NCBI GenBank assembly: GCA_030765065.1
Contig: CM060976.1
Coordinates: 62,418,539 to 62,482,538, forward strand
Direction: 5' to 3'
DNA from: Deroplatys truncata
Taxonomy: Eukaryota; Arthropoda; Insecta; Mantodea; Mantidae
Length of the DNA stretch: 64,000 nt
Shown here piece by piece: positions 7,590 to 50,353 of the stretch (position 1 is the stretch's first letter; the number at the start of each line of letters is the position of its first letter). The notes under the pieces are model-generated. The model had not been told where the DNA came from. It searched no databases and was given only the letters and a program-made list of their open reading frames with translations. Made by a program: the position numbers and the translations under genes.

Positions 7590-10540
7590 AGTAAAGGCAG
7601 TCAAAACGCTACACCTCTTTGCGCTGGTCTGTGGTTTCTAATACAGCAGTGAGCACTACCCTGTTTTGCTTCATATGGTTGTTCGTGGAGTTAACCCTAC
7701 TTGCCCATCAAAGTGGGTGTTTCGTAGAACACACTGACCCCTTTATTCCAAACTTGTGGCCCTAGACAACACTGCCTCCTTTCGTCATATTGATGCACGG
7801 GTCCAATATCTTCGATACTAGGCGGTGCTGAGCTTTTCATTCCTCAAATATCGTTTATTGGGTGACGTACTTTCCGATCCTGGTGATCGGAGGAATGTAG
7901 TGCAGCTCTCCGAGCTCGCCGTAAGGCCTTGAATGTGTTCGAACGTCATCCGACGATAGAGAATATGATTACTTTTAAAAAGCTGCGTGCTCAAGCTCGC
8001 AAAATACTTTGGCGGTGTAAGAAGTCTTCTTGGGAACAGTTTGTCTCCACTTTGTCACGTTGCACTTCCCCCTCCTGGCTGTGGAATAAAATCCAACGAC
8101 TTTGTGGTAAACCTCCTTCATCTATCCCTGGACCTTCTGTGGCTGGCAACGTTGTTACTGACCCCCATCACATAGCCAATTCCCTGGGTGGAGTCTTTGT
8201 CTTTAGTTCTTCCCACTGTGAACCGCAATTCTTGGTTGTCAAGGGTGAGTCCTCTGGTTTTGATTTTGTCTCTCAGAACCATTAGATTATAATCAGCCCT
8301 TCTCATTAGCTGATTTGAAATTAGCCTTGTCGGTCATTTCTGATATTGCCCCTGGCCCGGATGGTATTCGTGCACTAATGCTTAAATACTTGCCTCTAAG
8401 TAGTTATATCTTTCTTTTAGACACATTTAACCATATTTGGCAGCATGGCGCTTTCCTCTCATTGGCGCGATTCCATTACCGTTCCTCTTCTTAAGTCTGG
8501 AAAAGACCCGCGGTTGCCAACTAGCTACCGACCCATTTCTCTAACAAGCTGTATTTGTAATGTAATGGAGCGGAAGGTCGCTAAACGATTGATGTGGTGA
8601 CTTGAAGCGTATTCAATTACTCCTGTAAAATGCAGTTTTCGACAACAGCGTTGTACTGTTGACCATTTGGTTTAATTGGCGACTCACATTTATGATTCTT
8701 TTCTACGCAGACTACGGATGATTGCAGTCTTTTTTATTTAGAAAAAGCCTATGATACCGCCTGGCGTATAGGTATCCTCCGCCATCTGTTCCGTTGGAAT
8801 TTCCGTGGCCATCTTCCTGTCCTTTTGCAGCAGTTTATAGATGCCCGTACTTTTCGAGTACGGGTGAGATCTTCTTTCTTCCTGGTCTTTAGACAGGAGA
8901 ACGGTATGACGCAAGGCTCGGTATTGAGTGTTCTTTTGTTTGCTACAGCCATTAATTCCATTGTGTCGAACGTTCGAACAGGCATCACGCCGTTTCTCTT
9001 TTTAGATGATTTTGCATTTGTTGTAGCTCTGGGCGTACGCGCTTCAGTGCTTTCTCGAGATATCTTACACACTTGGAGTTCGGAGAATGGGTTTAAATTT
9101 TCAGCGGAGAAAACCCGCTGTCCTAATTTTTGGCGTCGTAAAGAGTTTCCTGCTTCCTATCTCCCTCTTGGTGGAGTGAAACTGCCGTTTGTTGAGGAAG
9201 CTACATTTATCGGCCTCTTTTTGATCGTGGACTTTGCTGGGGACCTCATATTTTATGCTTTCGCGGACGCTGTGCTCGCTCCCTGCAATTACTTTCTGTC
9301 CTTAGTGGCTCTTCTTGGGGTGCCGCTGCGTCTCTACCGGGCTTTAATACGTTCGAAACTTGACAATGAGTCCGTGGTTTATTCTTCTGCGACGATTGGA
9401 TCCTGTCCACCATCAAGGCTTTAGATTAGCCCTGGGAGCTTTTCTTACTAGTCCCATCTGTTGTTTGTACGTGGAATCTGGTGAACCATCCCTTTGGATA
9501 CGTCGGGATATTCTTCTTTGTAATTATGCCTCCGCTTTGCGTGCACTGCCTTATCACCCCGTCTATTGTACGTTCTTTGGTGCCACTTTGTATTATCGTT
9601 ATCGCAATAGTCCGTCTGCACTGCTTCCTGCGGGATGCAGGTTTCGGAACTTACTGTCAAAGTTGGATGCAGTACTTCCTTTGCTTTTCCGTAGGAAATT
9701 TTCCTCCATGAATACGCCACACCCCTCTGGTCGGCTTGATCTGGCTCAGTTGTCCAAGGACACTACTACAGCTCCTATATATGCAACCCATTTCGCGGCT
9801 TTGAAACATGACTTTCCTGGATACCATTTCTATATACTGATGGTTCTCGATTGATTCCTGTAGTTATTGGTTCCCATGTTGTACACAAGACTGGTTTTCC
9901 CCTTAGCACTTCTGTTTTTACTGCCGAACTGTATGCTATATTTAAAGCCACGTTGTTTATCCGCTCCTTTTCCCTGCGCTCTAGTGTCCTTTGTTCCGAT
10001 TCCCTCAGTGCTTCACTTAGTTTACGGGACTCTAGAGCCCACACCCACTTGTTCAGAAAATCCACGATCAGTTCCACTCTATTTTGATGGCTTTCGGGTG
10101 GTCTTTGTCTGGGTTTATGGACATCGTGGCATTGTAGGAAATGAACTGTCAGATCAGGCCGCGAAGACTGCTGTTCTACACCCTGATGAACTGATGGGTT
10201 CTGCGCTGCCTCTATACGGATTTGCAGGTTTTCCTGCGCCAGCAGATGCTCTCTCAATGGCATGCGGAGTGGCTTACATCTACCGCCAATCTCCGAGAGG
10301 TCAAGGCTACAACGCTTCCTTGGCGTTGTTCTTCTCGTCTTTCACGTCGCGAGGAGACCGTGCTTGCTCGGCTTCGTTATTTTAGTCACGGCTACCTCCA
10401 TAGGGGTGAACCCCCGCCCTCGCTGTTTCCACTTCAATATGCCCTTAACAGTAAAGCATTTCATTACTCAGTGTTGTTTCTATTCTGCCCTACGCGAAGG
10501 ATTAGACTCTCTGCTAGTTAAATTCAGGTTTTAGGGGATG
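7590..10540 (+). pseudogene. I/LOA/R1-group LINE: endonuclease end, reverse transcriptase, RNase H
   Basis: Several frames together carry an ordered LINE ORF2. From the left: the end of the endonuclease (SSEHYPVLLHMVV, near 7640); the linker with ALNVFERHPTIENMITFKKL (7929-7990); reverse transcriptase motifs APGPDGI (about 8349) and YRPISLTSC (about 8530); the active-site box FLDDFAF (about 8996, LDD replacing the usual ADD); an RNase H domain with YTDGS (9833-9847), AELYAI, LCSDS (about 9985) and a WVYGHRGIVGNELSDQA segment (about 10110-10170); and a C-terminal zinc-knuckle-like LTVKHFITQC (about 10445). The RNase H domain points to the I/LOA/R1 group rather than Jockey or CR1. At least five frame breaks and stops make it inactive. 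The region to about 10860, ending in a GTAGT/ACTAC-rich tract, is probably its 3' untranslated end. Confidence 0.85.
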
Positions 10541-18785: not shown

Positions 18786-18791
18786 TATATA
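18786..18791. repeat. Candidate target-site duplication, left (TATATA)
   Basis: The six bases before the terminal AGTAGG equal the six after the terminal CCTACT at the other end (35356-35361). The left copy lies in a longer TA run, which weakens it as proof. Confidence 0.5.
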
Positions 18792-18829
18792 AGTAGGATA
18801 TATAGGAGAGAGCTGGCGCAGTTTTTTGC

Positions 18830-19760
18830 GTTTATATGGGAAAGGATAGGGAAAACGAGGCTAGATGCGTCGGTTCAAGGAGGAAAATGCGTTTATATGG
18901 GGGAGATAGGGAATACGAGGACTGACGCTAGGCTAGACGGTGGTAGGAGGGGGAGTGCGCTTTATATGAGACAGATAGGGAATACGTGGAGAGGTGCTAG
19001 GCTAGACGGAGGCTGAGTAATGTATGGTTTATATGAGCGGTATAGGAAAACGATGAGAGGTGTTAGACTAGACAGGGCTTGAAACGTAGTGCATGGTTTA
19101 TATGAGAGATATAGGAAAACGATGAGAGGTGTTAGACTAGACAGGGCTTGAAACGTAGTGCATGATTTATATGAGAGATATAGGAAAACGAGGAAAGGTG
19201 TTAGGCTAGACAGAAGTCGAGGAGTAGAGTATGGTTTATATGAGAAGTATAGGAAAACGAGGAGAGGTATTAGATTAGGAGAATTGAGTTTGTGTTTATA
19301 AGGAGAGACGAGAAAACGGAGAGAGATCCTATGCTAGGATAGACAGGTGTTAAAGTTAGGTTAGATAGGAAACCAAGGAGTGATACTCAGCTAGAGGGGG
19401 GGCAGGAGGGAATGAGCTTTTGAGAGGTAGGGGATACGGGAAGTGGTGTTAGACTAGACAGGGCTTGAAACGTAGGGCATGGTTTATATGTATGAGAAGT
19501 ATAGGAACAGGAAGAGGGGTGCTAGGCTAGACAGAGGTTGAGGAGTAGAGTATAGTTTATATGAGAGGTATAGGAAAACGAGAGAGGCGTTAGGCTAGAC
19601 AGAGCTAGAGGAGTAGAGTATGGTTTATATGAGAGGTATAGGAACAGGAGGAGAGGTGTTCGGCTAGACAGGTAGTGTAGCAGTAGGAATATGGACTTAT
19701 ATACAGGAGAGATAGGGAATAGGAGGTGCTAGACTTGAAAGCGACTTTAGACGTGAACAT
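18830..19760 (+). repeat. ~69-bp subterminal tandem repeat (left)
   Basis: Units contain GGTTTATATGAGAGRTATAG, then GAAAACGA and TTAGRCTAGACAG, repeating about every 69 bp (e.g. near 19022, 19092, 19162, 19229). Divergence between units is moderate. The mirrored block is at 34290-35320. Confidence 0.8.
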
Positions 19761-19814
19761 AGTGGAAAACTGTTTCATGTCAATGATCTAGACATGCCCA
19801 TCACGTAACCTATT

Positions 19815-20120
19815 CAGGGAAAAGGTGACTCGTTCAGGGGAAAAGGTGACTGCTCAGGGAAAAAGGAGGCCCACAAAGCGAAAAAGTTGACAGGCAAAGG
19901 GAAAAATGTGACCAGCAAAGGGAAAAATGTGACCAGCAAAGGGAAAAAGGTGACCAGCAAAGGGAAAAAGGTGACCAGCAAAGGGAAAAAGGCGACATGC
20001 AACGGGAAAAAGGTGACCAGTAAAGGGAAAAATGTAGCCAGCCAAGGGAAAAAGGTGACCACCAAAGGGAAAAAGGTGAGCCATAAAGGGAAAAAGGTGA
20101 CCTGCAACGGGAAAAGCTAA
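19815..20120 (+). repeat. 21-bp minisatellite (left)
   Basis: About fourteen units of a 21-bp word, read as AAAGGGAAAAAGGTGACC plus AGC. Because 21 is a multiple of three, long open frames exist on both strands (KGKKVTS on plus, FPLLVTF on minus). These are by-products of the repeat and not genes. The mirrored array is at 33945-34262. Confidence 0.9.
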
Positions 20121-20124
20121 CCCA

Positions 20125-21460
20125 CTCACACTAACAGGTAAGTAATTCAGCTAGTATTGCAAGAGGTTGACTGCATCATAGCAGTGTATGATTTCACAGG
20201 TAATTCAGCTAGTATCGCATGTATTTAGGCTAATTCATCCAGTAACACAGAATAGATTCCAGAGGCTAACTGCATCATGGCTCTGCATAATTTCACAGGT
20301 AATTCAGCTAGTATCGTAGGTATTTAGGCTAATTCAGCTAGTATCACAAGAGGATAGATTCTAGGGTTGGGTATAGCTTAGTGTCGTATTTCACAGGTAA
20401 TTCAGAGAGTATCGTAGGTATTTAGGTTAATTCAAGTATCACAGACGTTTAGAGTAATTCAGCTAGCATTACAGGAGGGTAGGTTCCAGGGGTTGGTTAT
20501 AACATAGCTTCGTATTTCACAGATAGTTCGGGTAATATCGTAAGTATTTGAGGTAATCGACATAGCTTCACAGATATTATTGATAATTTCGATCAGAGAT
20601 TTGTATCACAGCTATTTAAGGTAAATGCAGGTGATTCAGGTTGTATCAATGGTATTTGAGTCATTTTAACAGGTAATTCATCTAGTATCATTGGTATCTA
20701 AGGCAAACCAGATAGTATCAAAGGTGCTCGTGCTAATTTAGAGCAGGAATTCGTATCAGAGCTAGTTAAGTTAATTTCACATGATTCGGGTAGTATCACA
20801 GGTATTTAAGTCATTTTCACAGGCAATTCAGCTAGTATCGTAGGTATTTAGGCTAATTCATCTAGTATCACAGGAGACTAGATTCCAGAGGCTAAATGCC
20901 TCATAGCTATGCATGATTTCACAGGTAATTCAGCTAGTATCGTAGGTATTTAGGCTAATTCAGCTAGTATCACAGGAGGCTAGATTCCAGGGTTGGGTAT
21001 AGCATAGTTTCGTATTTCACAGGTAATTCAGAGGGTATCGTAGGTATTTAGGATAATTCAAGTAACATAGGTGTTTAGAGTAATTAAGCAAGCATTACAG
21101 GAGGGTAGGTTCCAGGGGTTGGTATAGTTTCGTATTTTACAGATAGTTCAGGTAATATCGTAAGTATTTGGGTAATCAGCATAGTTTCACAGATGCTCGT
21201 AATAATTTCGATCAGAGATTTGTATCACAGCTATTTAAGGTAAATGCAGGTGATTCAGGTTGTATCAATGGTATTTGAGTAATTTTAACAGACAATTCTG
21301 ATAGTATCACAGGTGCTCGTACTAATTTAGCGCAGGAATTCGTATCTGAGCTAGTTAATGTAATTTCACTTGAATCGAGTAGTATCACAGGTATTTAAGT
21401 CATTTTAACAGGCAATTCAACTAGTATCACAGGTACTCATGGTAATATAGAGAGTAATTA
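20125..21460 (+). repeat. ~590-bp higher-order repeat (left, two units)
   Basis: Built from short words such as GGTAATTCAGCTAGTATC and GGTATTTAGGCTAATTC. A longer period is visible: GCAGGAATTCGTATC recurs near 20743 and 21331. The right arm (33200-33920) has only one such unit. Confidence 0.8.
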
Positions 21461-21614
21461 GATTATAAACATTTCGCATCCATCGTTACAACAATTTATA
21501 TACTTTTTTTCTAAATCTTACAAACTTATTATATGTTAAACAGTTATTGTACGATGCGGAGAGGGATAAACTGCATATTGGTTCACAAATTGAAAAGCTT
21601 TACGTCAACATACC

Positions 21615-21620
21615 TTTATT
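21615..21620 (-). terminator. Polyadenylation signal AATAAA (left polymerase copy)
   Basis: TTTATT on plus is AATAAA on the minus strand, about 200 nt past the polymerase stop. Its mirror is at 33028-33033. Confidence 0.5.
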
Positions 21621-21821
21621 TTAGTTCGTTGTAGATGTCTCTCCCCTTTTATCTAGGCTTGAGACTAGCACTAGGATTGCTCCTAATGGCAGGGTTACCA
21701 CCTTCCCTTCCATCTTATTTCTTCATCAGGCGTCAGCTATCAGCATATACAGCACACAGATAACATTCTTTTTTAAGATTGTAGACTCACGAGAAAATCT
21801 TTATCTTTAACTTACATTCTT

Positions 21822-24800
21822 TTAAGCACTGTTTGTAATATTGTAATGTCCATACGCATATGTCGTTATCCCGTCCTCAGCAATAATTCTTTTATCATCA
21901 AACGGAGTCAATGCAATTTCATTCACTTGCACTGTAGCAAGAGCATGCTTTCGTGATAGGATCAGATTCATAGGTGTTCTGATGATTTCACTGGTTTTAA
22001 GACAGTCTGTATAGCTGTCAAACGAAATGTACTGCTTAATAGCGCTACGTTTTATACCTTTAATCTTTTTTATCATTGACCCTTGAATATCTAAGGCATA
22101 CATCTTAGGACGTAGTCCAACAAAGCGTAGGATGATTGTGCTATTAGCCTCATCTTTAAATTTTCCCAATACCTTCTTGTTCTGAGTAGAGTAACATATA
22201 TGGTTGACAGTGTAATCAGTTGTATCGAGATGCTCAAGAAAACGTAGCTTATCCTGGTACACATCTTCAGTTGTTACACGATGAATGAACGAATCAGTGT
22301 CCATATACATAAGCTTCAGGTTTTCGGCTCCATAATAAGGCAACAAAACGTCGTAATGATAGTTATACATTAATGTCTTGGAGATGTCCAACACACTCAT
22401 ACCAATGTATATAGGCTTGTTGAATACAATCTGACGAGAGGCCATATGTACAGCAGCTAGATTATCAGCATATATCGTCCTGTCGATAAACGTAGGCTTG
22501 GCGATCAGCTTCTCTAGAGTTTTTTCATTGGTCACCAGTCGTATATCCATACGGTTATGCAGGTTCTCCATAGGTTTTCCAAATATAGCGTTGTTAAAGA
22601 GCTTGTAGAGATCCTTCTCGAAATCATTTGCAGCTTGTTGTCGTAGCCTGTTGTTAAATTCCACATAAGGTTTCAACCACTGAGACTGTCGGAATTGTAG
22701 CACACGATGGATTTTTGTTAGTCGTAGTCCATGACTAAGAGCTTGCTTCAAAGCCATGTAATGCACTACATACTTCTTTCGAGGTCCAAGATGAGGTATC
22801 AGTTTCTTTGTAGATGATTCCAATGGTTTCATACACTCTGGCAGGAAAGGTAGATCGTTGTGTAGATCGTGAAGTTCAGCAGGATACTCGATGTCGACTT
22901 CTAATATGTACCCATGAGGATCATCTTCTTGTAGTGTTTCTAAGTTGATTTCTTCAGGTGACACCCACTGAAATCCACCAAAAGGAAGGGCGTGACACAT
23001 TGCCCACCCATATTGGTTATTAGCGTCCTCGTATGTGATAAATTGGGTTGGTCTCGACGGATCAAACTTATCCATATAAGTGTTATTAGCCTCAGCATAC
23101 CGATGGGAAACTTGGCATAAACCTCCTCTTATACCTGATTCCACCATGAGTAGTTGATCATAATCTTGTAACAGCTCCAGCTTAATTCCAGTATACAGTA
23201 ACATGGCGTCCCATGTAAGACCTGGAGAGGTAAAATAATGGGCAGGATCAACTTTGTGTGTTTTAAGGGTTTGCTCTCTGAACGTCTCAAAGACATCAGC
23301 TAGGAGAAGTACATCCGAAGTTAAGTAGAGATCGCTGTACTCTCCCAGGTTTCTCACATTAAACAGCTCCCATACATTTCTAGCATGATCGTAGTCAGTA
23401 TCAGTAATTTCTTCTTCATTTAATCTATTGTAGAAGTAGTCCTTAGGAGGCAAGCAGGTCTCGTTCAGGACATCCCATGACGTAACAAAATCATAGGGAA
23501 ATACACCCTTACGGGTCATCAACTTCAATTTGTCTTCTCCAAAGTACTTTAGCGTTTCAGGATACGAGGTTAGATTTTTTACTAACTTATCCAAGCTTGT
23601 ACTGAGGAATCGGAAGCTATCCACAAATCGAAGCTTTATATCTCCTACATACTTGGTGAATGAGATATAGCTTTCTTCAGAGTTAGGAATTACCTCCACA
23701 CGTTCACTTGTACAACCCAGCTCCTTAGCAATGAAATGAGTCATATCCGCTAAGGTTATGCATGAAGACTGGTATATATTTAGGTGTTTTACAGGCTAAA
23801 TTACATTCATTATGAAGACTTCCACGATATTCACCGCTGATGTGATCATGGTCGCGTACTTTGTAGTTTTCTCCTGTAAAGCCTTTTCCACACAAGTAGC
23901 ATGCCGTAGAAGACTCAAAATCCTTTTGCTGTTGTTCCGTAAGTTTCAGAGGCTTAGTAGATTTGTATATGTCATCAATCATTTTTGCAAGAGATGTCAG
24001 GTACAGCATAAACTTCTGAGCAGCATCAGCACCACGATACACATAGGGTTGCTTAGGAAGACCAGTTTCGAGATGTTCAACACTGGATGTAGGCTTCACG
24101 TAAACACAGAAGCTCATTGGTGTGTGCTCTTGATAAGGGGTTGTATAGGAAGTTTCAGGATTGGGTATACACGTATGGCATGGAGTGAGAATACTCTCAA
24201 AATCAGCATAGATGGCATAAGGCACTTTCAGCATCCTCTCAACATTTTTAAACTGAACAATTGATTTCTCCTTGGTAGGCATAACTACCCTCGCAACACC
24301 ATGTTGAATACAGACGGCTACATGTTCTTGCAGTTTTTCCTGTCCACTTAGTCCATATCGATCATCAAAATGTGTAAAGCAGCGCTTACAAGTATAAACC
24401 CGTCCATTATGACTAGTTTTCTGGCGTCGAACGAGTTTCTCAAAATTCTTTATATATACGTAGTGATGTTTTCCACTACTATCATTCAATAGTAGCAGGT
24501 CGCGATGTTCAGGTAGTTCAATATCAACAACCTTTATCGGATACACTTCATGCTTCTCATCCAGCCCGAAAACGTTAATAGATATCTTGTTAAACTTCTC
24601 AAATTTTGGTATTTGAGAAAGTGGAGTAGGATAGGAAACACAGCTGAAGTCCTACTTATCTTGAAGTTGTTTGTATTTGTTCACACGCTGTGCATCCTTC
24701 CCTATGAATTTAGCTAATATAGAGTACATGAAACATTTCTCGTCGGTAAAGCTCTGAATGTTTATACATGCTTTCCTTGCTTCAACAGCTGACGGTAGTG

Positions 24801-25463
24801 GTATGTAGCTACTTCCTCGCAACGGATTGTACTTGTTGATACGAAGTCGAACTCCTTCCACAGCAAGCAAAGCCCAGCTGCTACCCTTAAGCTGAGACTC
24901 CTCCATTTCAGTCACCAATTTCTCGAATTTCACTTCCATCGCTGACTCCAGATCAGTTTCCAGGAAAACAGCTTGATTCCGTGTTTTAAATGTTTTGTCA
25001 CAGGTTTCACCAATACTGTTAACAAATCGACACTCAGCCAGCAGATTAATTTTAACACTCTTATGAATGCTAAGCTCTTTATGCACATCCGTTGTTTTGC
25101 CTCTTGCAGATACATATTCAGGTCCTTAGGTGACTCGCATCGTATAAAATACGATTTCAATCGTCCTTCGAATGAAGTTTCGTATTCTTTCATATCACAG
25201 TCCTCCATTGTTGACAGCAACTGATGTTTAGTTGGTTCCAATCTTCTTTTCTTCTGAGGGCTGCTTATTTCACATATATCTTCGTGACGCTGCCCCTTAT
25301 AACCATCTTTGAAGGTTACATTACAATGTTTACATTTGAAGAGCTTCTTGCAGCTCATCTCGTGTCTTCTCTTGTCATAACCTCGGAGGAACTTCTTCCC
25401 ACATTTTCCGCATGCATATCCAGTAGCGCTTGGAATAATATCCTTATACGCTGAGTTATTCAT
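21822..25463 (-). pseudogene. Protein-primed-type family B DNA polymerase, left copy (inactivated)
   Basis: A polymerase of about 1,210 codons in the DNA_pol_B_2 group (organellar, plasmid, Polinton and viral type). From the start at 25463: two C2HC zinc fingers (C18/C21/H34/C38 and C44/C47/H60/C64); a region of unknown role; a second finger-like cluster; exonuclease motif I YADFES (23725-24546 frame, D115/E117); an endonuclease VII/HNH-like cluster (C217, C220, DHDH at 232-235, H245, C248); exonuclease II at NLSGYD; then, in the 640-residue frame, exonuclease III YSDLYLTSD, polymerase motif A D240-ANNQY, motif B KLFNNAIFG (381-389) and motif C MDTDS (D482, D484). It is broken by a frame change in 24930-25086, an amber stop at 24652-24654 and a second frame change at 23725-23744. 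The motifs themselves look intact, so inactivation is recent or the sequence is held by conversion with the other arm. Confidence 0.9.
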
Positions 25464-25596
25464 CTTTATTCTTGATGTAATAACGTATTAATCACTGATC
25501 AATGAAATGTAGACCTCTTCAACTTGATACCACTTTACAAAGCTGATTATTCTTGGAGAGAACACGATGTTAACACCTCAAGACTAATTAGCACAA

Positions 25597-25629
25597 TGAA
25601 GTCCAATGCCCTAGATCACCATATTTATA
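25597..25629 (-). promoter_or_regulatory. Core promoter of left polymerase copy (TATA + initiator)
   Basis: On the minus strand TATAAATA (25629-25622) lies about 32 bp upstream of an initiator-like TTCATTG (A at 25597). This is standard TATA-to-start spacing for RNA polymerase II. The predicted leader before the first ATG is about 134 nt. It is identical in the other arm. Confidence 0.6.
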
Positions 25630-26159
25630 GAGGGAGCACGAACCTTTTAGATCAATCATAAACTCGTTTCATAACCAGATGTATATGATCGCTCAACGTG
25701 TATTAACCCCCCCAGCCATATAACCTCAAGTCTAGAGACAGGATGTTTATGACGTCACACCCAGAGACAGAATGTCTGACAGCATCAAACACGTTTAAAC
25801 TCGTCTAATAACTACCTGCTTATGCTGTCACACCAGCAAGAGAAGCATTCTCCCACGCTCATTCAGACATATATTTCAAATTCAAAGCCTACCACCACCA
25901 TCACCACCTATTGTACCAAGGTTAATTCCAGCTGTATTATCACAATACTTAAAGTAAAAGCTTAAAAGGTAAGGAGAAGATGTCCCCCTTATTTACTTAA
26001 TTATCTCATGTTTTCATTCCCTTTTCAATTCTTCCTTTCCATCTTCTCACAGAAAGCCCATTAATACTTTAATAAATGTATTTTAGCTCCCCAATATCAG
26101 CATCAAGCATTTAATCTTTACTCGAACCTGATATGATTCATAAGCTTGAAGATATATGA

Positions 26160-27170
26160 TATCACCCCTTCGGGATTCGATCTGAGTACTTTAAAGTAAT
26201 ATTTGTCATGATAACGATATTTAAGGACTAGATACTCTTTACGTTTACCTTGACATGTATATCTAAATTAAATTACGAGTTATTAAATTTTTGCAAGTAA
26301 ATTTCATTGAATCGGTATTCGAACCCAGAACACCAGGAACAAAATAATTTATAATATTAGTCTGACATGTTAAACAAATCTGTATGCAGTTACATCTTCG
26401 ATCTAAGTGATATATTCTAGTGTACAGAGGAAAATTAAGGAAGTCATTAAAAGATGGGGAATCGAACCAAGCACAACTGATTGACAATTATATACAGCAT
26501 TAATCACCCAGTACAGAACCTATAAATCATGCTTTGGTGCACTCCTCTACCTCACTTAGTTCCCGAGATAATGAAAATTTCAAAATTAAGGATCGACCCC
26601 AGGACGTCAGGTATCTAATTACACATCTACAAGATACTACCTAATAACATAAATGCAATAAAGTTTATTTGGTGTCTTTATTGTAATTAGTTTAGGAGTT
26701 ATTAAATTTATAATTAAATTACATTTTATCAGTATTCGAACCCAGAACACCAGAAACAAAATTATTTACAATGTTAGTTTGATATGTTTAAAAGAGCTGT
26801 ATGTAGTTACAGCATCAATGTAAGTGATATATTCTAGAGTATAGAGAGAAATTAAGGAAGTCATTAAAAAATCGGGATTCGAACTAGAGACAACTGATTG
26901 AAAATTATATACAGTATTAATTACACATTATAACAGCTATCAAACATGCTTTGGAGCATTCCTCTAGCTTTCTTAGTTTCCGAGATAATCGAGATTTAAG
27001 AATTAAGGATCGAACCCAGGACACCAGGTACCAAAATATACATTTACAAGAAACTACCTAATGCCATTAATGTAATAAAGTTTATTTGGCGTCTTTATAT
27101 TAATTAGTCTCTGAGTTATTAAAAGATGAATTTGTAATCACTCGTAGGATTCGAACCCAGGCATCCCGGT
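26160..27170 (-). repeat. Core array of ~139-bp repeats with B-box-like motif (left)
   Basis: A motif like GGTTCGAATCC recurs about every 139 bp, and every third copy is most alike (GTATTCGAACCCAGAACACCAG at 26315 and 26732, 417 bp apart, in plus orientation). This is a trimeric higher-order structure. Matching motifs occur near 26172, 26316, 26457, 26590, 26733, 26875, 27007 and 27150. Confidence 0.8.
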
Positions 27171-27288
27171 CAACTTGGAACAATACCCTAATGACGCGAC
27201 GCATTCCAAAGAATTAATTAGTTTTTATCCTAATGTTGTATCTGTTTTCATTCAGGAGATATAAGCGATTAAACAGTAGAAATAAAAT

Positions 27289-27359
27289 GGGCGGGGCATG
27301 CCGGCATAGAACAAAGAACCTTATCAGATGTTGGCATCTCTCTGTTTGCTCAAAGATAC
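27289..27359. other. 71-bp asymmetric spacer at palindrome centre
   Basis: The arms' inner ends pair at 27288 and 27360. The spacer begins with a GC-rich GGGCGGGGCATGCCGGCA patch, unlike the AT-rich arms, and does not pair with itself overall. It is the only part of the element present once, and it would be the loop if the arms folded back. Confidence 0.85.
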
Positions 27360-27479
27360 ATTTTATTGCTACTGTTTAATCGCTTATATCTCCTGAATGA
27401 AAACAGATACAACATTGGGATAAAAATTAATTAATTCTTTGGAATGCGTCGCGTCATTAGGGTATTGTTCCAAGTTGAC

Positions 27480-28490
27480 CGGGATGCCTGGGTTCGAATC
27501 CTACGAGTGATTACAAATTCATCTTTTAATAACTCAGAGACTAATTAATATAAAGACGCCAAATAAACTTTATTACATTAATGGCATTAGGTAGTTTCTT
27601 GTAAATGTATATTTTGGTACCTGGTGTCCTGGGTTCGATCCTTAATTCTTAAATCTTGATTATCTCGGAAACTAAGAAAGCTAGAGGAATGCTCCAAAGC
27701 ATGTTTGATAGCTGTTATAATGTGTAATTAATACTGTATATAATTTTCAATCAGTTGTCTCTAGTTCGAATCCCGATTTTTTAATGACTTCCTTAATTTC
27801 TCTCTATACTCTAGAATATATCACTTACATTGATGCTGTAACTACATACAGCTCTTTTAAACATATCAAACTAACATTGTAAATAATTTTGTTTCTGGTG
27901 TTCTGGGTTCGAATACTGATAAAATGTAATTTAATTATAAATTTAATAACTCCTAAACTAATTACAATAAAGACACCAAATAAACTTTATTGCATTTATG
28001 TTATTAGGTAGTATCTTGCAGATGTGTAATTAGATACCTGACGTCCTGGGGTCGATCCTTAATTTTGAAATTTTCATTATCTCGGGAACTAAGTGAGGTA
28101 GAGGAGTGCACCAAAGCATGATTGATAGGTTCTGTACTGGGTGATTAATGCTGTATATAATTGTCAATCAGTTGTGCTTGGTTCGATTCCCCATCTTTTA
28201 ATGACTTCCTTAATTTTCCTCTGTACACTAGAATATATCACTTAGATCGAAGATGTAACTGCATACAGATTTGTTTAACATGTCAGACTAATATTATAAA
28301 TTATTTTGTTCCTGGTGTTCTGGGTTCGAATACCGATTCAATGAAATTTACTTGCAAAAATTTAATAACTCGTAATTTAATTTAGATATACATGTCAAGG
28401 TAAACGTAAAGAGTATCTAGTCCTTAAATATCGTTATCATGACAAATATTACTTTAAAGTACTCAGATCGAATCCCGAAGGGGTGATATC
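27480..28490 (+). repeat. Core array of ~139-bp repeats with B-box-like motif (right)
   Basis: GGTTCGAATCC-like motifs lie near 27492, 27632, 27773, 27906, 28049, 28189, 28323 and 28466, spaced 133-143 bp apart. In this orientation the motif matches the T-loop/B-box of tRNA genes (GGTTCGAATCC). No matching A box or cloverleaf is evident upstream of each. Confidence 0.8.
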
Positions 28491-29018
28491 ATATATCTTC
28501 AAGCTTATGAATCATATCAGGTTCGAGTAAAGATTAAATGCTTGATGCTGATATTGGGGAGCTAAAATACATTTATTAAAGTATTAATGGGCTTTCTGTG
28601 AGAAGATGGAAAGGAAGAATTGAAAAGGGAATGAAAACATGAGATAATTAAGTAAATAAGGGGGACATCTTCTCCTTACCTTTTAAGCTTTTACTTTAAG
28701 TATTGTGATAATACAGCTGGAATTAACCTTGGTACAATAGGTGGTGATGGTGGTGGTAGGCTTTGAATTTGAAATATATGTCTGAATGAGCGTGGGAGAA
28801 TGCTTCTCTTGCTGGTGTGACAGCATAAGCAGGTAGTTATTAGACGAGTTTAAACGTGTTTGATGCTGTCAGACATTCTGTCTCTGGGTGTGACGTCATA
28901 AACATCCTGTCTCTAGACTTGAGGTTATATGGCTGGGGGGGTTAATACACGTTGAGCGATCATATACATCTGGTTATGAAACGAGTTTATGATTGATCTA
29001 AAAGGTTCGTGCTCCCTC

Positions 29019-29051
29019 TATAAATATGGTGATCTAGGGCATTGGACTTCA
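29019..29051 (+). promoter_or_regulatory. Core promoter of right polymerase copy (TATA + initiator)
   Basis: TATAAATA at 29019-29026, with an initiator-like TTCATTG whose A is at 29051. The first ATG is at 29185. This is the mirror of the left-arm promoter; the two fire outward from the core. Confidence 0.6.
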
Positions 29052-29184
29052 TTGTGCTAATTAGTCTTGAGGTGTTAACATCGTGTTCTCTCCAAGAATA
29101 ATCAGCTTTGTAAAGTGGTATCAAGTTGAAGAGGTCTACATTTCATTGATCAGTGATTAATACGTTATTACATCAAGAATAAAG

Positions 29185-32100
29185 ATGAATAACTCAGCGT
29201 ATAAGGATATTATTCCAAGCGCTACTGGATATGCATGCGGAAAATGTGGGAAGAAGTTCCTCCGAGGTTATGACAAGAGAAGACACGAGATGAGCTGCAA
29301 GAAGCTCTTCAAATGTAAACATTGTAATGTAACCTTCAAAGATGGTTATAAGGGGCAGCGTCACGAAGATATATGTGAAATAAGCAGCCCTCAGAAGAAA
29401 AGAAGATTGGAACCAACTAAACATCAGTTGCTGTCAACAATGGAGGACTGTGATATGAAAGAATACGAAACTTCATTCGAAGGACGATTGAAATCGTATT
29501 TTATACGATGCGAGTCACCTAAGGACCTGAATATGTATCTGCAAGAGGCAAAACAACGGATGTGCATAAAGAGCTTAGCATTCATAAGAGTGTTAAAATT
29601 AATCTGCTGGCTGAGTGTCGATTTGTTAACAGTATTGGTGAAACCTGTGACAAAACATTTAAAACACGGAATCAAGCTGTTTTCCTGGAAACTGATCTGG
29701 AGTCAGCGATGGAAGTGAAATTCGAGAAATTGGTGACTGAAATGGAGGAGTCTCAGCTTAAGGGTAGCAGCTGGGCTTTGCTTGCTGTGGAAGGAGTTCG
29801 ACTTCGTATCAACAAGTACAATCCGTTGCGAGGAAGTAGCTACATAACACTACCGTCAGCTGTTGAAGCAAGGAAAGCATGTATAAACATTCAGAGCTTT
29901 ACCGACGAGAAATGTTTCATGTACTCTATATTAGCTAAATTCATAGGGAAGGATGCACAGCGTGTGAACAAATACAAACAACTTCAAGATAAGTAGGACT
30001 TCAGCTGTGTTTCCTATCCTACTCCACTTTCTCAAATACCAAAATTTGAGAAGTTTAACAAGATATCTATTAACGTTTTCGGGCTGGATGAGAAGCATGA
30101 AGTGTATCCGATAAAGGTTGTTGATATTGAACTACCTGAACATCGCGACCTGCTACTATTGAATGATAGTAGTGGAAAACATCACTACGTATATATAAAG
30201 AATTTTGAGAAACTCGTTCGACGCCAGAAAACTAGTCATAATGGACGGGTTTATACTTGTAAGCGCTGCTTTACACATTTTGATGATCGATATGGTCTAA
30301 GTGGACAGGAAAAACTGCAAGAACATGTAGCCGTCTGTATTCAACATGGTGTTGCGAGGGTAGTTATGCCTACCAAGGAGAAATCAATTGTTCAGTTTAA
30401 AAATGTTGAGAGGATGCTGAAAGTGCCTTATGCCATCTATGCTGATTTTGAGAGTATTCTCACTCCATGCCATACGTGTATACCCAATCCTGAAACTTCC
30501 TATACAACCCCTTATCAAGAGCACACACCAATGAGCTTCTGTGTTTACGTGAAGCCTACATCCAGTGTTGAACATCTCGAAACTGGTCTTCCTAAGCAAC
30601 CCTATGTGTATCGTGGTGCTGATGCTGCTCAGAAGTTTATGCTGTACCTGACATCTCTTGCAAAAATGATTGATGACATATACAAATCTACTAAGCCTCT
30701 GAAACTTACGGAACAACAGCAAAAGGATTTTGAGTCTTCTACGGCATGCTACTTGTGTGGAAAAGGCTTTACAGGAGAAAACTACAAAGTACGCGACCAT
30801 GATCACATCAGCGGTGAATATCGTGGAAGTCTTCATAATGAATGTAATTTAGCCTGTAAAACACCTAAATATATACCAGTCTTCATGCATAACCTTAGCG
30901 GATATGACTCATTTCATTGCTAAGGAGCTGGGTTGTACAAGTGAACGTGTGGAGGTAATTCCTAACTCTGAAGAAAGCTATATCTCATTCACCAAGTATG
31001 TAGGAGATATAAAGCTTCGATTTGTGGATAGCTTCCGATTCCTCAGTACAAGCTTGGATAAGTTAGTAAAAAATCTAACCTCGTATCCTGAAACGCTAAA
31101 GTACTTTGGAGAAGACAAATTGAAGTTGATGACCCGTAAGGGTGTATTTCCCTATGATTTTGTTACGTCATGGGATGTCCTGAACGAGACCTGCTTGCCT
31201 CCTAAGGACTACTTCTACAATAGATTAAATGAAGAAGAAATTACTGATACTGACTACGATCATGCTAGAAATGTATGGGAGCTGTTTAATGTGAGAAACC
31301 TGGGAGAGTACAGCGATCTCTACTTAACTTCGGATGTACTTCTCCTAGCTGATGTCTTTGAGACGTTCAGAGAGCAAACCCTTAAAACACACAAAGTTGA
31401 TCCTGCCCATTATTTTACCTCTCCAGGTCTTACATGGGACGCCATGTTACTGTATACTGGAATTAAGCTGGAGCTGTTACAAGATTATGATCAACTACTC
31501 ATGGTGGAATCAGGTATAAGAGGAGGTTTATGCCAAGTTTCCCATCGGTATGCTGAGGCTAATAACACTTATATGGATAAGTTTGATCCGTCGAGACCAA
31601 CCCAATTTATCACATACGAGGACGCTAATAACCAATATGGGTGGGCAATGTGTCACGCCCTTCCTTTTGGTGGATTTCAGTGGGTGTCACCTGAAGAAAT
31701 CAACTTAGAAACACTACAAGAAGATGATCCTCATGGGTACATATTAGAAGTCGACATCGAGTATCCTGCTGAACTTCACGATCTACACAACGATCTACCT
31801 TTCCTGCCAGAGTGTATGAAACCATTGGAATCATCTACAAAGAAACTGATACCTCATCTTGGACCTCGAAAGAAGTATGTAGTGCATTACATGGCTTTGA
31901 AGCAAGCTCTTAGTCATGGACTACGACTAACAAAAATCCATCGTGTGCTACAATTCCGACAGTCTCAGTGGTTGAAACCTTATGTGGAATTTAACAACAG
32001 GCTACGACAACAAGCTGCAAATGATTTCGAGAAGGATCTCTACAAGCTCTTTAACAACGCTATATTTGGAAAACCTATGGAGAACCTGCATAACCGTATG

Positions 32101-32826
32101 GATATACGACTGGTGACCAATGAAAAAACTCTAGAGAAGCTGATCGCCAAGCCTACGTTTATCGACAGGACGATATATGCTGATAATCTAGCTGCTGTAC
32201 ATATGGCCTCTCGTCAGATTGTATTCAACAAGCCTATATACATTGGTATGAGTGTGTTGGACATCTCCAAGACATTAATGTATAACTATCATTACGACGT
32301 TTTGTTGCCTTATTATGGAGCCGAAAACCTGAAGCTTATGTATATGGACACTGATTCGTTCATTCATCGTGTAACAACTGAAGATGTGTACCAGGATAAG
32401 CTACGTTTTCTTGAGCATCTCGATACAACTGATTACACTGTCAACCATATATGTTACTCTACTCAGAACAAGAAGGTATTGGGAAAATTTAAAGATGAGG
32501 CTAATAGCACAATCATCCTACGCTTTGTTGGACTACGTCCTAAGATGTATGCCTTAGATATTCAAGGGTCAATGATAAAAAAGATTAAAGGTATAAAACG
32601 TAGCGCTATTAAGCAGTACATTTCGTTTGACAGCTATACAGACTGTCTTAAAACCAGTGAAATCATCAGAACACCTATGAATCTGATCCTATCACGAAAG
32701 CATGCTCTTGCTACAGTGCAAGTGAATGAAATTGCATTGACTCCGTTTGATGATAAAAGAATTATTGCTGAGGACGGGATAACGACATATGCGTATGGAC
32801 ATTACAATATTACAAACAGTGCTTAA
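29185..32826 (+). pseudogene. Protein-primed-type family B DNA polymerase, right copy (inactivated)
   Basis: Mirror copy of the gene at 21822-25463, with the same domain order: two N-terminal C2HC fingers, exonuclease I YADFES, endonuclease VII-like Cys/His cluster, exonuclease II, exonuclease III and polymerase motifs A (DANNQY), B (KLFNNAIFG) and C (MDTDS). The coding runs in three blocks: 29185-29718; about 29562-30923, with an in-frame TAG at 29994-29996; and 30904-32826. The frame shifts once near 29560-29700 and shifts back at 30904-30923. All three lesions are shared with the left copy. The 273- and 640-residue blocks are identical to the left copy, and the middle block differs by one residue (Thr for Pro, base 29847). 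Start chosen as the first ATG after a TATA/initiator promoter. The full-length layout, if unbroken, would suit a self-replicating linear DNA that primes with protein; no terminal-protein domain can be shown. Confidence 0.9.
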
Positions 32827-33027
32827 AAGAATGTAAGTTAAAGATAAAGATTTTCTCGTGAGTCTACAATCTTAAAAAAGAATGTTATCTGTGTGCTGTA
32901 TATGCTGATAGCTGACGCCTGATGAAGAAATAAGATGGAAGGGAAGGTGGTAACCCTGGCATTAGGAGCAATCCTAGTGCTAGTCTCAAGCCTAGATAAA
33001 AGGGGAGAGACATCTACAACGAACTAA

Positions 33028-33033
33028 AATAAA
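33028..33033 (+). terminator. Polyadenylation signal AATAAA (right polymerase copy)
   Basis: AATAAA about 200 nt downstream of the polymerase stop, mirroring the left arm. Only the hexamer is seen; no clear GU-rich element was identified. Confidence 0.5.
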
Positions 33034-33199
33034 GGTATGTTGACGTAAAGCTTTTCAATTTGTGAACCAATATGCAGTTTATCCCTCTCCGCATCGTACA
33101 ATAACTGTTTAACATATAATAAGTTTGTAAGATTTAGAAAAAAAGTATATAAATTGTTGTAACGATGGATGCGAAATGTTTATAATCTAATTACTCTCT

Positions 33200-33920
33200 A
33201 TATTACCATGAGTACCTGTGATACTAGTTGAATTGCCTGTTAAAATGACTTAAATACCTGTGATACTACTCGAATCAAGTGAAATTACATTAACTAGCTC
33301 TGATACGAATTCCTGCTCTAAATTAGCACGAGCACCTGTGATACTATCTGGTTTGCCTTAGATACAAATGATACTAGATGAATTACCTGTTAAAATGACT
33401 CAAATACCATTGATACAACCTGAATCACCTGCATTTGCCTTAAATAGCTGTGATACAAATCTCTGATCGAAATTATCAATAATATCTGTGAAGCTATGTC
33501 GATTACCTCAAATACTTACGATATTACCCGAACTATCTGTGAAATACGAAGCTATGTTATAACCAACCCCTGGAACCTACCCTCCTGTAATGCTAGCTGA
33601 ATTACTCTAAACGTCTGTGATACTTGAATTAACCTAAATACCTACGATACTCTCTGAATTACCTGTGAAATACGACACTAAGCTATACCCAACCCTAGAA
33701 TCTATCCTCTTGTGATACTAGCTGAATTAGCCTAAATACCTACGATACTAGCTGAATTACCTGTGAAATTATGCAGAGCCATGATGCAGTTAGCCTCTGG
33801 AATCTATTCTGTGTTACTGGATGAATTAGCCTAAATACATGAGATACTAGCTGAATTACCTGTGAAATCATACACTGCTATGATGCAGTCAACCTCTTGC
33901 AATACTAGCTGAATTACTTA
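33200..33920 (-). repeat. Higher-order repeat (right, one unit)
   Basis: Inverted counterpart of 20125-21460, with a single ~590-bp unit plus edges. The copy-number difference suggests loss or gain by unequal recombination after the palindrome formed. Confidence 0.8.
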
Positions 33921-33944
33921 CCTGTTAGTGTGAGTGGGTTAGCT

Positions 33945-34262
33945 TTTCCCGTTGCAGGTCACCTTTTTCCCTTTATGGCTCACCTTTTTCCCTTTGATGG
34001 TCACCTTTTTCCCTTTGCTGGCTACATTTTTCCCTTTACTGGTTACCTTTTTCCCGATCATGTCGCCTTTTTCCCTTTGCTGGTCACCTTTTTCCCTTTG
34101 CTGGTCACCTTTTTCCCTTTGCTGGTCACCTTTTTCCCTTTGCTGGTCACATTTTTCCCTTTGCTGGTCACATTTTTCCCTTTGCTAGTCAACTTTTTCC
34201 CTTTGTGGGCCTCCTTTTTCCCTGAGCAGTCACCTTTTCCCCTGAACGAGTCACCTTTTCCC
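33945..34262 (-). repeat. 21-bp minisatellite (right)
   Basis: Inverted copy of the left array (TTTTTCCCTTTGCTGGTCACC in this orientation). One unit reads CCCGATCATGTCGCC, a small departure from the left array. Confidence 0.9.
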
Positions 34263-34289
34263 TGAATAGGTTACGTGATGGGCATGTCT

Positions 34290-35320
34290 AGAACATTGAC
34301 ATGAAACAGTTTTCCACTATGTTCACGTCTAAAGTCGCTTTCAAGTCTAGCACCTCCTATTCCCTATCTCTCCTGTATATAAGTCCATATTCCTACTGCT
34401 ACACTACCTGTCTAGCCGAACACCTCTCCTCTGTTCCTATACCTCTCATATAAACCATACTCTACTCCTCTAGCTCTGTCTAGCCTAACGCCTCTCTCGT
34501 TTACCTATGACTCTCACATAAACCATACTCTGCTCCTCGACCTCTGTCTAGTCTTATTTCCTCTCCTCGTTTTCCTATACCTCTCATATAAACTATACTC
34601 TACTCCTCAACCTCTGACTAGCCTAGCACCCCTCTTCCTGTTCCTATACTTCTCATACATATAAACCATGCCCTACGTTTCAAGCCCTGTCTAGTCTAAC
34701 ACCACTTCCCGTATCCCCTACCTCTCAAAAGCTCATTCCCTCCTGCCCCCCTCTAGCTGAGTATCACTCCTTGGTTTCCTATCTAACCTAACTTTAACAC
34801 CTGTCTATCCTAGCATAGGATCTCTCTCCGTTTTCTGGTCTCTCCTTATAAACACAAACTCAATTCTCCTAATCTAATACTTCTCCTCGTTTTCCTATAC
34901 TTCTCATATAAACCATACTCTACTCCTCGACTTCTGTCTAGCCTAACACCTTTCCTCGTTTTCCTATATCTCTCATATAAACCATGCACTACGTTTCAAG
35001 CCCTGTCTAGTCTAACACCTCTCATCGTTTTCCTATATCTCTCATATAAACCATCCACTACGTTTCAAGCCCTGTCTAGTCTAACACCTCTCATCGTTTT
35101 CCTATACCGCTCATATAAACCATACATTACTCAGCCTCCGTCTAGCCTAGCACCTCTCCACGTATTCCCTATCTGTCTCATATAAAGCACACTCCCCCTC
35201 CTACCACTGTCTAGCCTAGCGTCAGTCCTCGTATTCCCTATCTCCCCCATATAAACGCATTTTCCTCCTTGAACCGACGCACCTAGCCTCGTTTTCCCTA
35301 TCCTTTCCCATATAAACGCA
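34290..35320 (-). repeat. ~69-bp subterminal tandem repeat (right)
   Basis: Inverted counterpart of 18830-19760, with words such as CTCATATAAACCAT and CTGTCTAG. Several units differ from the left block, so the outer arms diverge faster than the core. Confidence 0.8.
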
Positions 35321-35355
35321 AAAAACTGCGCCAGCTCTCTCTTATATATCCTACT

Positions 35356-35361
35356 TATATA
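35356..35361. repeat. Candidate target-site duplication, right (TATATA)
   Basis: Directly follows CCTACT. Unlike the left side it is not inside a long TA run, as ACTCAC... follows from 35361. Confidence 0.5.
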
Positions 35362-49025: not shown

Positions 49026-49179
49026 TTTATTTTAAGTCGTTTGAACTCGCTGGTCATATCGCAAAGTATTCATATCTCCATAAGGATACGAACCACCATA
49101 GCATAATAAAATTATATTGTAAATGTACATTAGTCAGACAAGATTATAATTTGGCGTATATCTTAGTTTGCTTAATATA
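49026..49179. other. Short AT-rich gap
   Basis: No feature seen before the mariner's TA target site at 49178-49179. Confidence 0.4.
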
Positions 49180-50353
49180 CGACGTACGTCCAGAAAGTAA
49201 GTTCCGTTTGTAATAAAATTAAATTGTGTACAGATACAGAAAAATTATTTATTGCACAAAATGCTACAACTCTTAAACTACTTTTCCACATAACTGCCGA
49301 AATTTTGCAGGATTTGTCATAGCGTGGCACTAGTTTTTGTATACCTTCTTCATAGAAGTTTGCCGCCTGTGTCTTCAACCAGTTGGAAACATTTTGTTTC
49401 AGCTCTTCGTCATTGTTGAAGTGTTGGCCGCCAAGGAAAGACTTGAGATGTAAGAACAGATGAAAGTCGCCAGGAGCGAGGTCAGGGCTGTACGGAGGAT
49501 GGTCAAACACGTCCCAGTCAAATCCCTGAAGGAGGTTTTGCGTCATATTTGCAATGTGTGGTCGTGCGTTGTCGGGAAGAAAAACAACACTTTTTGATAG
49601 CAATCCTCGGCGCTTATTCTGTATTGCGCGGCGCAATTTCCTAAGTGTCTCGCAATAAACATCTGCTTTGATTGTTTGACCACGCGGTAAGAAATCAATG
49701 AGTAAGATGCCTTTCCAGTCCCAGAACACTGTGCACATCATTTTTCGAGGTGTCAAGATTTGTTTCGGCTTAACCTTTGCTGGGGATGAAGTGTGCCACC
49801 ATTCCATTGATTGCCGCTTACTTTCAGGGGTGTCGTAAGAAACCCAAGTTTCATCTCCTGTGACTATCTGTGTCAGAAATTCTTCGCCGCCTTCATCATA
49901 ACGGGACAAAAACTGAAGTGCACTACCCATCCGGTTTGTTTTGTGTTGTTCAGTAAGAATCTTTGGTATCCAACGACAGCAAAGTTTACGAAATTTCAGT
50001 TTTTCGGTAACAATTTCATGAATTAGTGATCGTGAGATTTGGGGAAATTCCATAGCGAGAGCACTAATTGTAAACTTGCGGGTTTCCTGTATCTTGTCAT
50101 CAATCTTCTTCTGTAACCCTAAGATGGACGCCCACTTCGTTCTTCATCGTGCACTTCACTACGTCTTTCATTGAACTGTCGGACCCGTCTTCTCACCATT
50201 GAATCACTCATCGCATTTTGTCCGTAAACTTCGCAAATTTGCCGATAAATTTCAATTGGTTTCACTTTCCTAGCATTCAGAAAACGAATCACAGATCTGA
50301 TTTCACAAGCGGCGGGATTTTCAATCAACACCGACATTGTAAACAAGCACAAC
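49172..50353 (-). pseudogene. Mariner transposase (DD34D), two frame disruptions
   Basis: Cut-and-paste transposase. Likely start is the ATG at 50337 or a few codons upstream; the N-terminal helix-turn-helix runs through IRSVIRFLNARKVKPIEIYR and MSDSMVRRRVRQFNERRSEV. After GRPS a one-base shift produces TAG at about 50119. The catalytic part is open in the next frame (49172-50053): GDETWVSY (D67 of that frame), LPDNARPH (D161) and YSPDLAPGDFHLF (D196), giving 34 residues between the last two aspartates, the mariner DD34D signature. A second shift after LVPRYDK makes the frame run through the left terminal repeat, ending in TELTFWTYVVY. Catalytic residues are kept, so this is a young copy, but not functional as it stands. 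Confidence 0.9.

Follow-up and report, generated by a model that had tools for sequence, protein, structure and literature searches.

A family of palindromic, polymerase-bearing elements with Polinton-like ends in the mantis Deroplatys truncata

How can a mobile element that is almost entirely its own mirror image, and in which a DNA polymerase is the only recognizable protein-coding gene, be copied and inserted? The question is raised by a stretch of 64,000 nucleotides from Deroplatys truncata (GenBank assembly GCA_030765065.1, contig CM060976.1, positions 62,418,539 to 62,482,538, forward strand), here called the window, in which a mirrored element of 16,564 bp occupies positions 18792-35355. 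It is built of two arms and a 69-nt spacer, with one family B DNA polymerase (PolB) gene per arm, and it has many relatives in the same genome. The family is Polinton-like in its polymerase and its ends, but does not qualify as a Polinton by gene content or by its terminal inverted repeats (TIRs). We regard it as probably a satellite derived from Polintons (also called Mavericks), one that keeps its own polymerase and termini, has lost the other genes, is replicated by way of a giant hairpin and relies on an integrase from elsewhere.

The left arm (18792-27289) starts with AGTAGG, the right arm (27359-35355) terminates in CCTACT, and the spacer between them (27290-27358) is asymmetric and recognizable in other elements. 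The palindrome is real, and its ends at 18792 and 35355 are those given in an initial annotation made from the letters of the window alone; a spacer does separate the arms as that annotation held, although its length is 69 nt and not 71. A 6,000-nt inverted repeat in the window scored 100%, far beyond chance. Alignment of the inner arms shows 9 substitutions over 5,830 bases and no gap; the outer arms have 24 substitutions in 2,099 bases and five indels (1, 70, 1, 20 and 589 nt) that lie within tandem arrays, which brings the total to 33 substitutions and five indels. The positions of the PolB regions mirror each other, as first described, but the indels mean that the outer arms are not exact mirror images.

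The genome search covered the 4.29-Gb assembly (818 contigs) to which the window belongs, and all counts concern the best-scored candidates, 40 each for PolB, centre and terminus. With PolB DNA as the query, 40 of 5,683 first-look candidates were scored, and half of these (20) group into 10 mirrored pairs, the window included. The outer arrays and PolB are mirrored on both sides in all nine other pairs, every one of the nine left ends reads AGTAGG, and an inner block resembling that of the window is present on both sides in 7/9 (at C16:217.9, its first 200 bases only). Part of one arm has been lost near the centre at C13:61.2 and C16:455.3. For six of the other 20 scored PolB places the partner side was inspected: one locus is a complete palindrome, in three a one-arm deletion reaches the centre, C2:199.5 Mb is rearranged, and at C5:68.15 Mb no partner lies within 5 kb. 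Deletions close to the centre are frequent among the elements. The second arm was seen in 17/19 loci viewed in this way and neither of the other two looks like a clean monomer in the parts viewed, which speaks against a head-to-head dimer of a surviving 8-kb monomer, one of two options in the initial annotation; the lasting monomer falls away, while a fold-back step during copying is still likely. The other option was a class of element that has only a polymerase and consists almost entirely of its inverted repeats. The genome search then proposed supports it, having returned numerous palindromes that share a centre but have different flanks.

The centre itself is shared to a high degree. The best 40 of 2,518 centre candidates, a choice biased to complete centres, all align along almost all of the 401 bases on both strands (40/40); in three of these loci, partly read, PolB (~95%) is accompanied by the inner block, the spacer and the beginning of the mirrored arm. 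The spacers measure 69-73 nt in the seven elements aligned (C14 only partly). This common spacer and centre favour one origin of the palindrome. From the terminus, 40 of 2,022 candidates were scored, and 26/40 form 13 facing pairs (window included) lying 11-24 kb apart, six of the 13 being 17.6-17.7 kb long; a 2.5-kb piece read from one of the 12 new pairs is PolB at 98.2%. Element length in the family is ~16-18 kb, with arms of 8.0-8.7 kb. In two elements, C16:217.9 (L018/L019) and C13:61.2 (L028/L029), the inner block or centre is longer and of another kind, with short frames only and no recognizable gene; such variants point to centre swapping within the family. Mosaic copies also occur: L046 (7700-8201) and L048 (7400-7901), on different chromosomes, have 502 identical centre bases, and their aligned arms are ~3% different overall.

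All ten elements in which both ends were seen start with AGTAGG and end with CCTACT, and the six bases flanking them agree in 6/6 positions in eight elements and 5/6 in two (n=10). When left and right flanks were swapped between elements as a control, 0/90 pairs agreed in 5 or 6 bases. The duplication in the window is TATATA, at 18786-18791 on the left and 35356-35361 on the right. Three of the ten duplications are self-complementary (this one, GTGCAC and AATATT) and seven are not; the self-complementary ones, taken alone, might belong to the inverted repeat and are individually weaker evidence. On its right side the element at C14:213.8 Mb merges into the beginning of another copy. AGT-type ends with 6-bp duplications are the signature of Mavericks/Polintons, and AGT-type ends and perfect 6-bp duplications are criteria applied to vertebrate Mavericks (PMC8097293). 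The initial annotation had overlooked these ends and duplications, as it had the ribozyme and the broken frames described below.

Within each element the two arms are nearly the same. Left and right PolB differ at 2/3642 positions in the window and at 1/3653, 1/3652, 13/3647, 3/3652, 25/3643, 0/3230, 4/3652, 9/2973 and 48/3637 in the others, a divergence of 0-1.3%, against 0.4-6.9% between the left arms of different elements; in 10/10 elements the arms are closer to their own partner than to any other of the ten. As arm divergence lies below divergence between elements, the arms appear to have been made alike before each insertion. One of the youngest elements has 4 differences in 8,704 aligned arm bases, arrays included, and no gap.

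The PolB regions (21822-25463, minus strand, in the left arm; 29185-32826, plus strand, in the right) are read outward from the centre, with the N-termini facing. PolB is not intact in the window: a stop and shifts of frame, shared by the two arms, split each region into several open frames. The polymerase domain occupies a 640-aa open frame (21822-23744, minus strand; mirror copy at 30904-32826, plus strand) that matches PF03175 (E 9.2e-23), and an Endonuclease VII finger is found in the frame preceding it. The predicted structure of the 640-aa frame (predicted local distance difference test, pLDDT, 86.5) is closest to phi29 DNA polymerase (1xhx, E 2.2e-15), the model protein-primed enzyme; a sequence search of the PDB with the PolB profile gave zero matches. 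Homologues are numerous in the protein collection (4,876 among 7,976 scored candidates), and among the 120 listed most of those named to species are arthropod, with Nematostella and Amphiura besides, the best at 71% identity. A scan of IMG/VR with the single PolB protein gave no match, and a scan with the alignment gave one contig, IMGVR_UViG_3300028392_002905 (L001; 17.4 kb), whose PolB is 42% identical and is adjoined by an rve integrase and an A32-like ATPase; a relative in such company indicates that the palindrome polymerase is of the Polinton kind. The GTDB search returned eight short contigs, probably misbinned, none with a PolB palindrome, and one of them (L002) has a BRO-N gene near PolB.

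One of the breaks in PolB, a 2-nt frame difference, is present in 10/16 elements and absent from 6/16, the two states being scattered over the tree, and it is also absent from the 2.5-kb PolB piece of the terminus-pair element. This scatter implies that the difference recurs or is reshuffled, and that copies without it exist. A programmed frameshift at this place was favoured when nine of ten elements had the difference, and was weakened by the six of 16 that lack it and by the scattered state; among the 120 homologues there is no peak of start points at this position (17/120 fall within the surrounding 51-residue stretch).

The polymerase domain bears signs of selection before insertion. Differences between elements that both arms share were counted as changes from before insertion, and differences between the arms as changes from after it. 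In the polymerase-domain frame of 10 elements, the former comprise 75 silent and 67 replacing changes (omega 0.24, p 1.8e-16) and the latter 14 silent and 49 replacing (omega 0.95), and the contrast between the two is significant (Fisher p 5.9e-5). The two wrong frames give omega values of 1.2 and 1.6 (nine elements).

PolB is found once per arm as first described, but it is not the only feature, as a predicted twister-P1-like ribozyme follows it by ~120 nt behind the stop, in the sense of PolB (21635-21701, minus strand). The mirror copy, placed by mirroring of the coordinates at 32947-33013 (plus strand), differs from it by one substitution. The match to Rfam twister-P1 (RF03160) in the window scores 54.3 bits (E 1.7e-11), spans model positions 1-68 of 68 and keeps the conserved loop letters; scores across elements are 50.6-58.0 bits, below the Rfam gathering threshold of 67.2. 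A like match was found in 7/7 further element halves searched, and there was none in contigs L001-L009, which include the IMG/VR contig (L001) and the GTDB contig (L002). Over 28 arms, variable columns number 9/67 in the ribozyme, compared with 54/120 upstream (Fisher p 1e-5) and 34/115 downstream (p 0.02), and 12/28 arms differ from the left copy of the window at at least one base. Relative to the Rfam consensus, one L4 base and the facing L1 base are both changed with complementarity kept. In twister, loops L4 and L1 form the pseudoknot T1 (PMC5408937), and in our own reading these two letters would be T1 partners; the RNA downstream of PolB is, judging from its sequence, likely self-cleaving. 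It has in common with curated twister P1 the full-length match, the conserved loops and the complementary L4/L1 letters, and unlike it scores below the cut-off and sits behind the PolB gene of a mobile element. No precedent for a self-cleaving RNA behind a DNA polymerase gene appeared in the titles and abstract beginnings of the literature matches listed.

The other genes expected of a Polinton were looked for in the window and in pieces of other elements (L018-L041 and L046-L048). In these stretches tblastn with the rve integrase of L001 gave no match, though a distant integrase could escape such a search. The L001 ATPase and the other L001 frames, among them a suspected capsid query unconfirmed by Pfam, gave no credible match in the same stretches; protease had no query of its own. 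Pfam found no integrase, ATPase, capsid or transposase match on 10 arm pieces, and a PAAR match on a frame of the 21-bp array (E 6e-5, below cut-off) was set aside as a low-complexity chance hit. Integrase or capsid genes between the arms, which the initial annotation had named as evidence against its proposal, are thus not seen in these stretches. The host genome does contain integrase-like frames, 129 of 9,144 candidates having been scored, with 26-33% identity to the L001 integrase; most are open over 309 aa and 121/129 of the scored places have no internal stop, which suggests a separate, recently active element family. On contig C72, two such frames (159931-160512, minus strand; 165191-165772, plus strand) are mirrored 4.7 kb apart, possibly another palindromic element, with an integrase. 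Among the 120 matches listed for the L001 integrase in the protein collection, no link to a named arthropod was found.

From these data we infer a cycle of hairpin copying, integrase supplied in trans and a role for the ribozyme. PolB from one or both arms would start at the ends of the linear element and copy it. In protein-primed replication a full-length strand is displaced; here this strand, or an unfinished nascent one, would pair with itself, being self-complementary, to give a hairpin of 8 kb whose loop is the 69-nt spacer. This hairpin would rebuild a double-stranded end by itself, and its copying or repair would yield identical arms. Leegwater et al. reportedly found in 1988 that the adenovirus panhandle, formed from short terminal repeats, can be duplicated; by analogy, the panhandle of the palindrome would be the whole element. 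A Polinton-type integrase acting in trans would insert the product and leave 6-bp duplications, after which the arms would drift apart and the centre would be prone to deletion, while the twister-like ribozyme may set the 3' end of the PolB transcript. Arms that are alike before every insertion call for a step in which one arm templates both, or for mismatch repair of a hairpin, and both follow from fold-back. A bolder form of this account, which we place a little short of an even chance, treats the family as a distinct self-templating palindromic class: a Polinton satellite whose replicating form is a half-length hairpin, in which one arm templates both in each cycle, the arms serve as an insertion clock, and the twister ends the PolB transcript instead of, or besides, polyadenylation.

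The arms could instead owe their identity to events after insertion. A single Polinton-derived palindrome may have been moved passively by Polinton machinery, with its arms evened out later by gene conversion as in large chromosomal palindromes; the common centre does point to a single origin, gene conversion can act between arms no more than 10 kb apart, and in several older elements the outer arrays have diverged more between arms than PolB has. However, conversion would have to be near-complete in the youngest element (8.7 kb with arrays, 4 differences, no gap), and the arms of the older C5 and C14 elements are ~2-9% different when gaps are counted, whereas slow conversion predicts the opposite pattern; the silent-biased changes shared by both arms also point to homogenization in the copying lineage. 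We therefore hold this account to be unlikely, though it deserves real weight. Were the palindromes formed independently, one by one, when the PolB end of a standard Polinton folded back, as in defective genomes of the adenovirus type, arm identity at birth and the missing genes would both be accounted for, and the variant centre of C16:217.9 and C13:61.2 would fit as well. The seven elements compared share a junction with a similar spacer of 69-73 nt, and the centre is the same in 40 scored places, which largely refutes such independent origins; no non-palindromic parent was seen, and the idea is improbable.

Foldback elements (FB, TU, Galileo) are likewise built of long inverted repeats bearing tandem arrays, so that a foldback-type DNA transposon with a captured PolB and a cut-and-paste transposase comes to mind. 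It is decidedly improbable, as the palindromes differ from foldback elements in gene content and ends, Pfam found no transposase of their own on the 10 arm pieces, the polymerase domain is under selection, and 6-bp duplications with AGT/ACT ends fit Mavericks as characterized in PMC8097293. That the assembly simply wrote one arm twice would explain arms so nearly identical, but is scarcely credible given the 33 substitutions and five indels in the window, and ten mirrored places with varied arm divergence, eight of the nine others having a 6-bp duplication of their own; the mirrored pairs elsewhere equally dispose of a lone oddity.

Several observations weigh against the hairpin-copied satellite. 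Its copying and transposition are predictions from sequence, and gene conversion after insertion could partly explain the identity of the arms; outer arms and arrays diverge more than PolB in several older elements, in a comparison that omits the unsafe-looking alignments of the C14 outer and C16:455.3 inner parts. No terminal protein was identified alongside PolB. With PolB broken by the 2-nt difference in 10/16 elements, many copies may borrow a polymerase as well. The evidence for selection is less firm outside the polymerase domain, where two N-terminal stretches have pre-insertion omega values of 0.42 and 0.21 and a contrast that is not significant (p 0.39 and 0.29), and it softens without C14 and C16:455.3 (8 elements; Fisher p 0.09, post-insertion omega 0.54 from 9 and 18 changes). 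As single-stranded DNA the spacer region folds no better than many shuffled sequences (z -1.28, 24/200), and a special spacer hairpin was rejected on this ground. Finally, no element with AGTAGG/CCTACT termini and an integrase was seen, and the integrase-like frames of Polinton size, abundant as they are, were not tied to palindromes.

In comparing the family to known systems, the protein-primed type of PolB, the AGT.../...ACT ends, the 6-bp duplications and a terminus spacing of 11-24 kb are shared with Polintons/Mavericks (Polintoviricetes, including adintoviruses). The palindromes differ from them in having PolB twice and a twister-like ribozyme, and in that the stretches searched gave no integrase, ATPase or capsid gene. 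Intact vertebrate Mavericks, as given in PMC8097293, are 12.7-24.6 kb long, were sought with the motifs (AG)3 or (AGT)2, and have 6-bp duplications and TIRs of 46-1,447 bp, compared with inverted repeats of ~8 kb here. The polinton-like virus L001 has a PolB of the same family (42%) and tandem repeats at one contig end; it differs in its single PolB, its rve integrase and A32-like ATPase, the absence of a long palindrome in the 14.2 kb examined and the absence of a twister match. Maverick fragments of Mayetiola destructor contain only polymerase or only integrase, with a median size of 1,243 bp, as given in PMC8504770, and resemble the palindromes in having PolB without the rest of a Maverick; unlike these fragments, the palindrome family has defined ends, duplications and young copies. 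No such palindromic element was found among the matches listed (titles and abstract beginnings, mostly open-access) in the literature on Polinton/Maverick palindromes, long TIRs, foldback elements and defective forms.

Many eukaryotic DNA viruses are traced back to Polintons, whose replication, to our knowledge, has not yet been watched. A family that seems to have shed all but its polymerase and ends, with dozens of scored places and thousands of first-look candidates, would show what the polymerase requires in cis, with arms that record each copying event. If this is true, the arms offer a way to date insertions, as long terminal repeats do for retrotransposons.

The remaining features of the window concern repeats and neighbouring elements. 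The outer part of the left arm (18961-21460) consists of tandem arrays with periods of ~69, 21, 99 and 120 bp, among others, and the right arm has the mirrored arrays at 33219-35218. Beside the centre, each arm has two 417-bp tandem units (26266-27123 and 27525-28382) that repeat GGGTTCGAATCC-like motifs, which we take to resemble the B box of tRNA genes; ARAGORN predicted no tRNA. A mariner-type transposase and a DDE_3 transposase lie beside the element (49172-50053 and 51553-52068), the mariner-type frame being 94% identical over 84% of its length to a protein of the beetle Anoplophora, and a reverse transcriptase fragment (PF00078) lies at 8825-9424.

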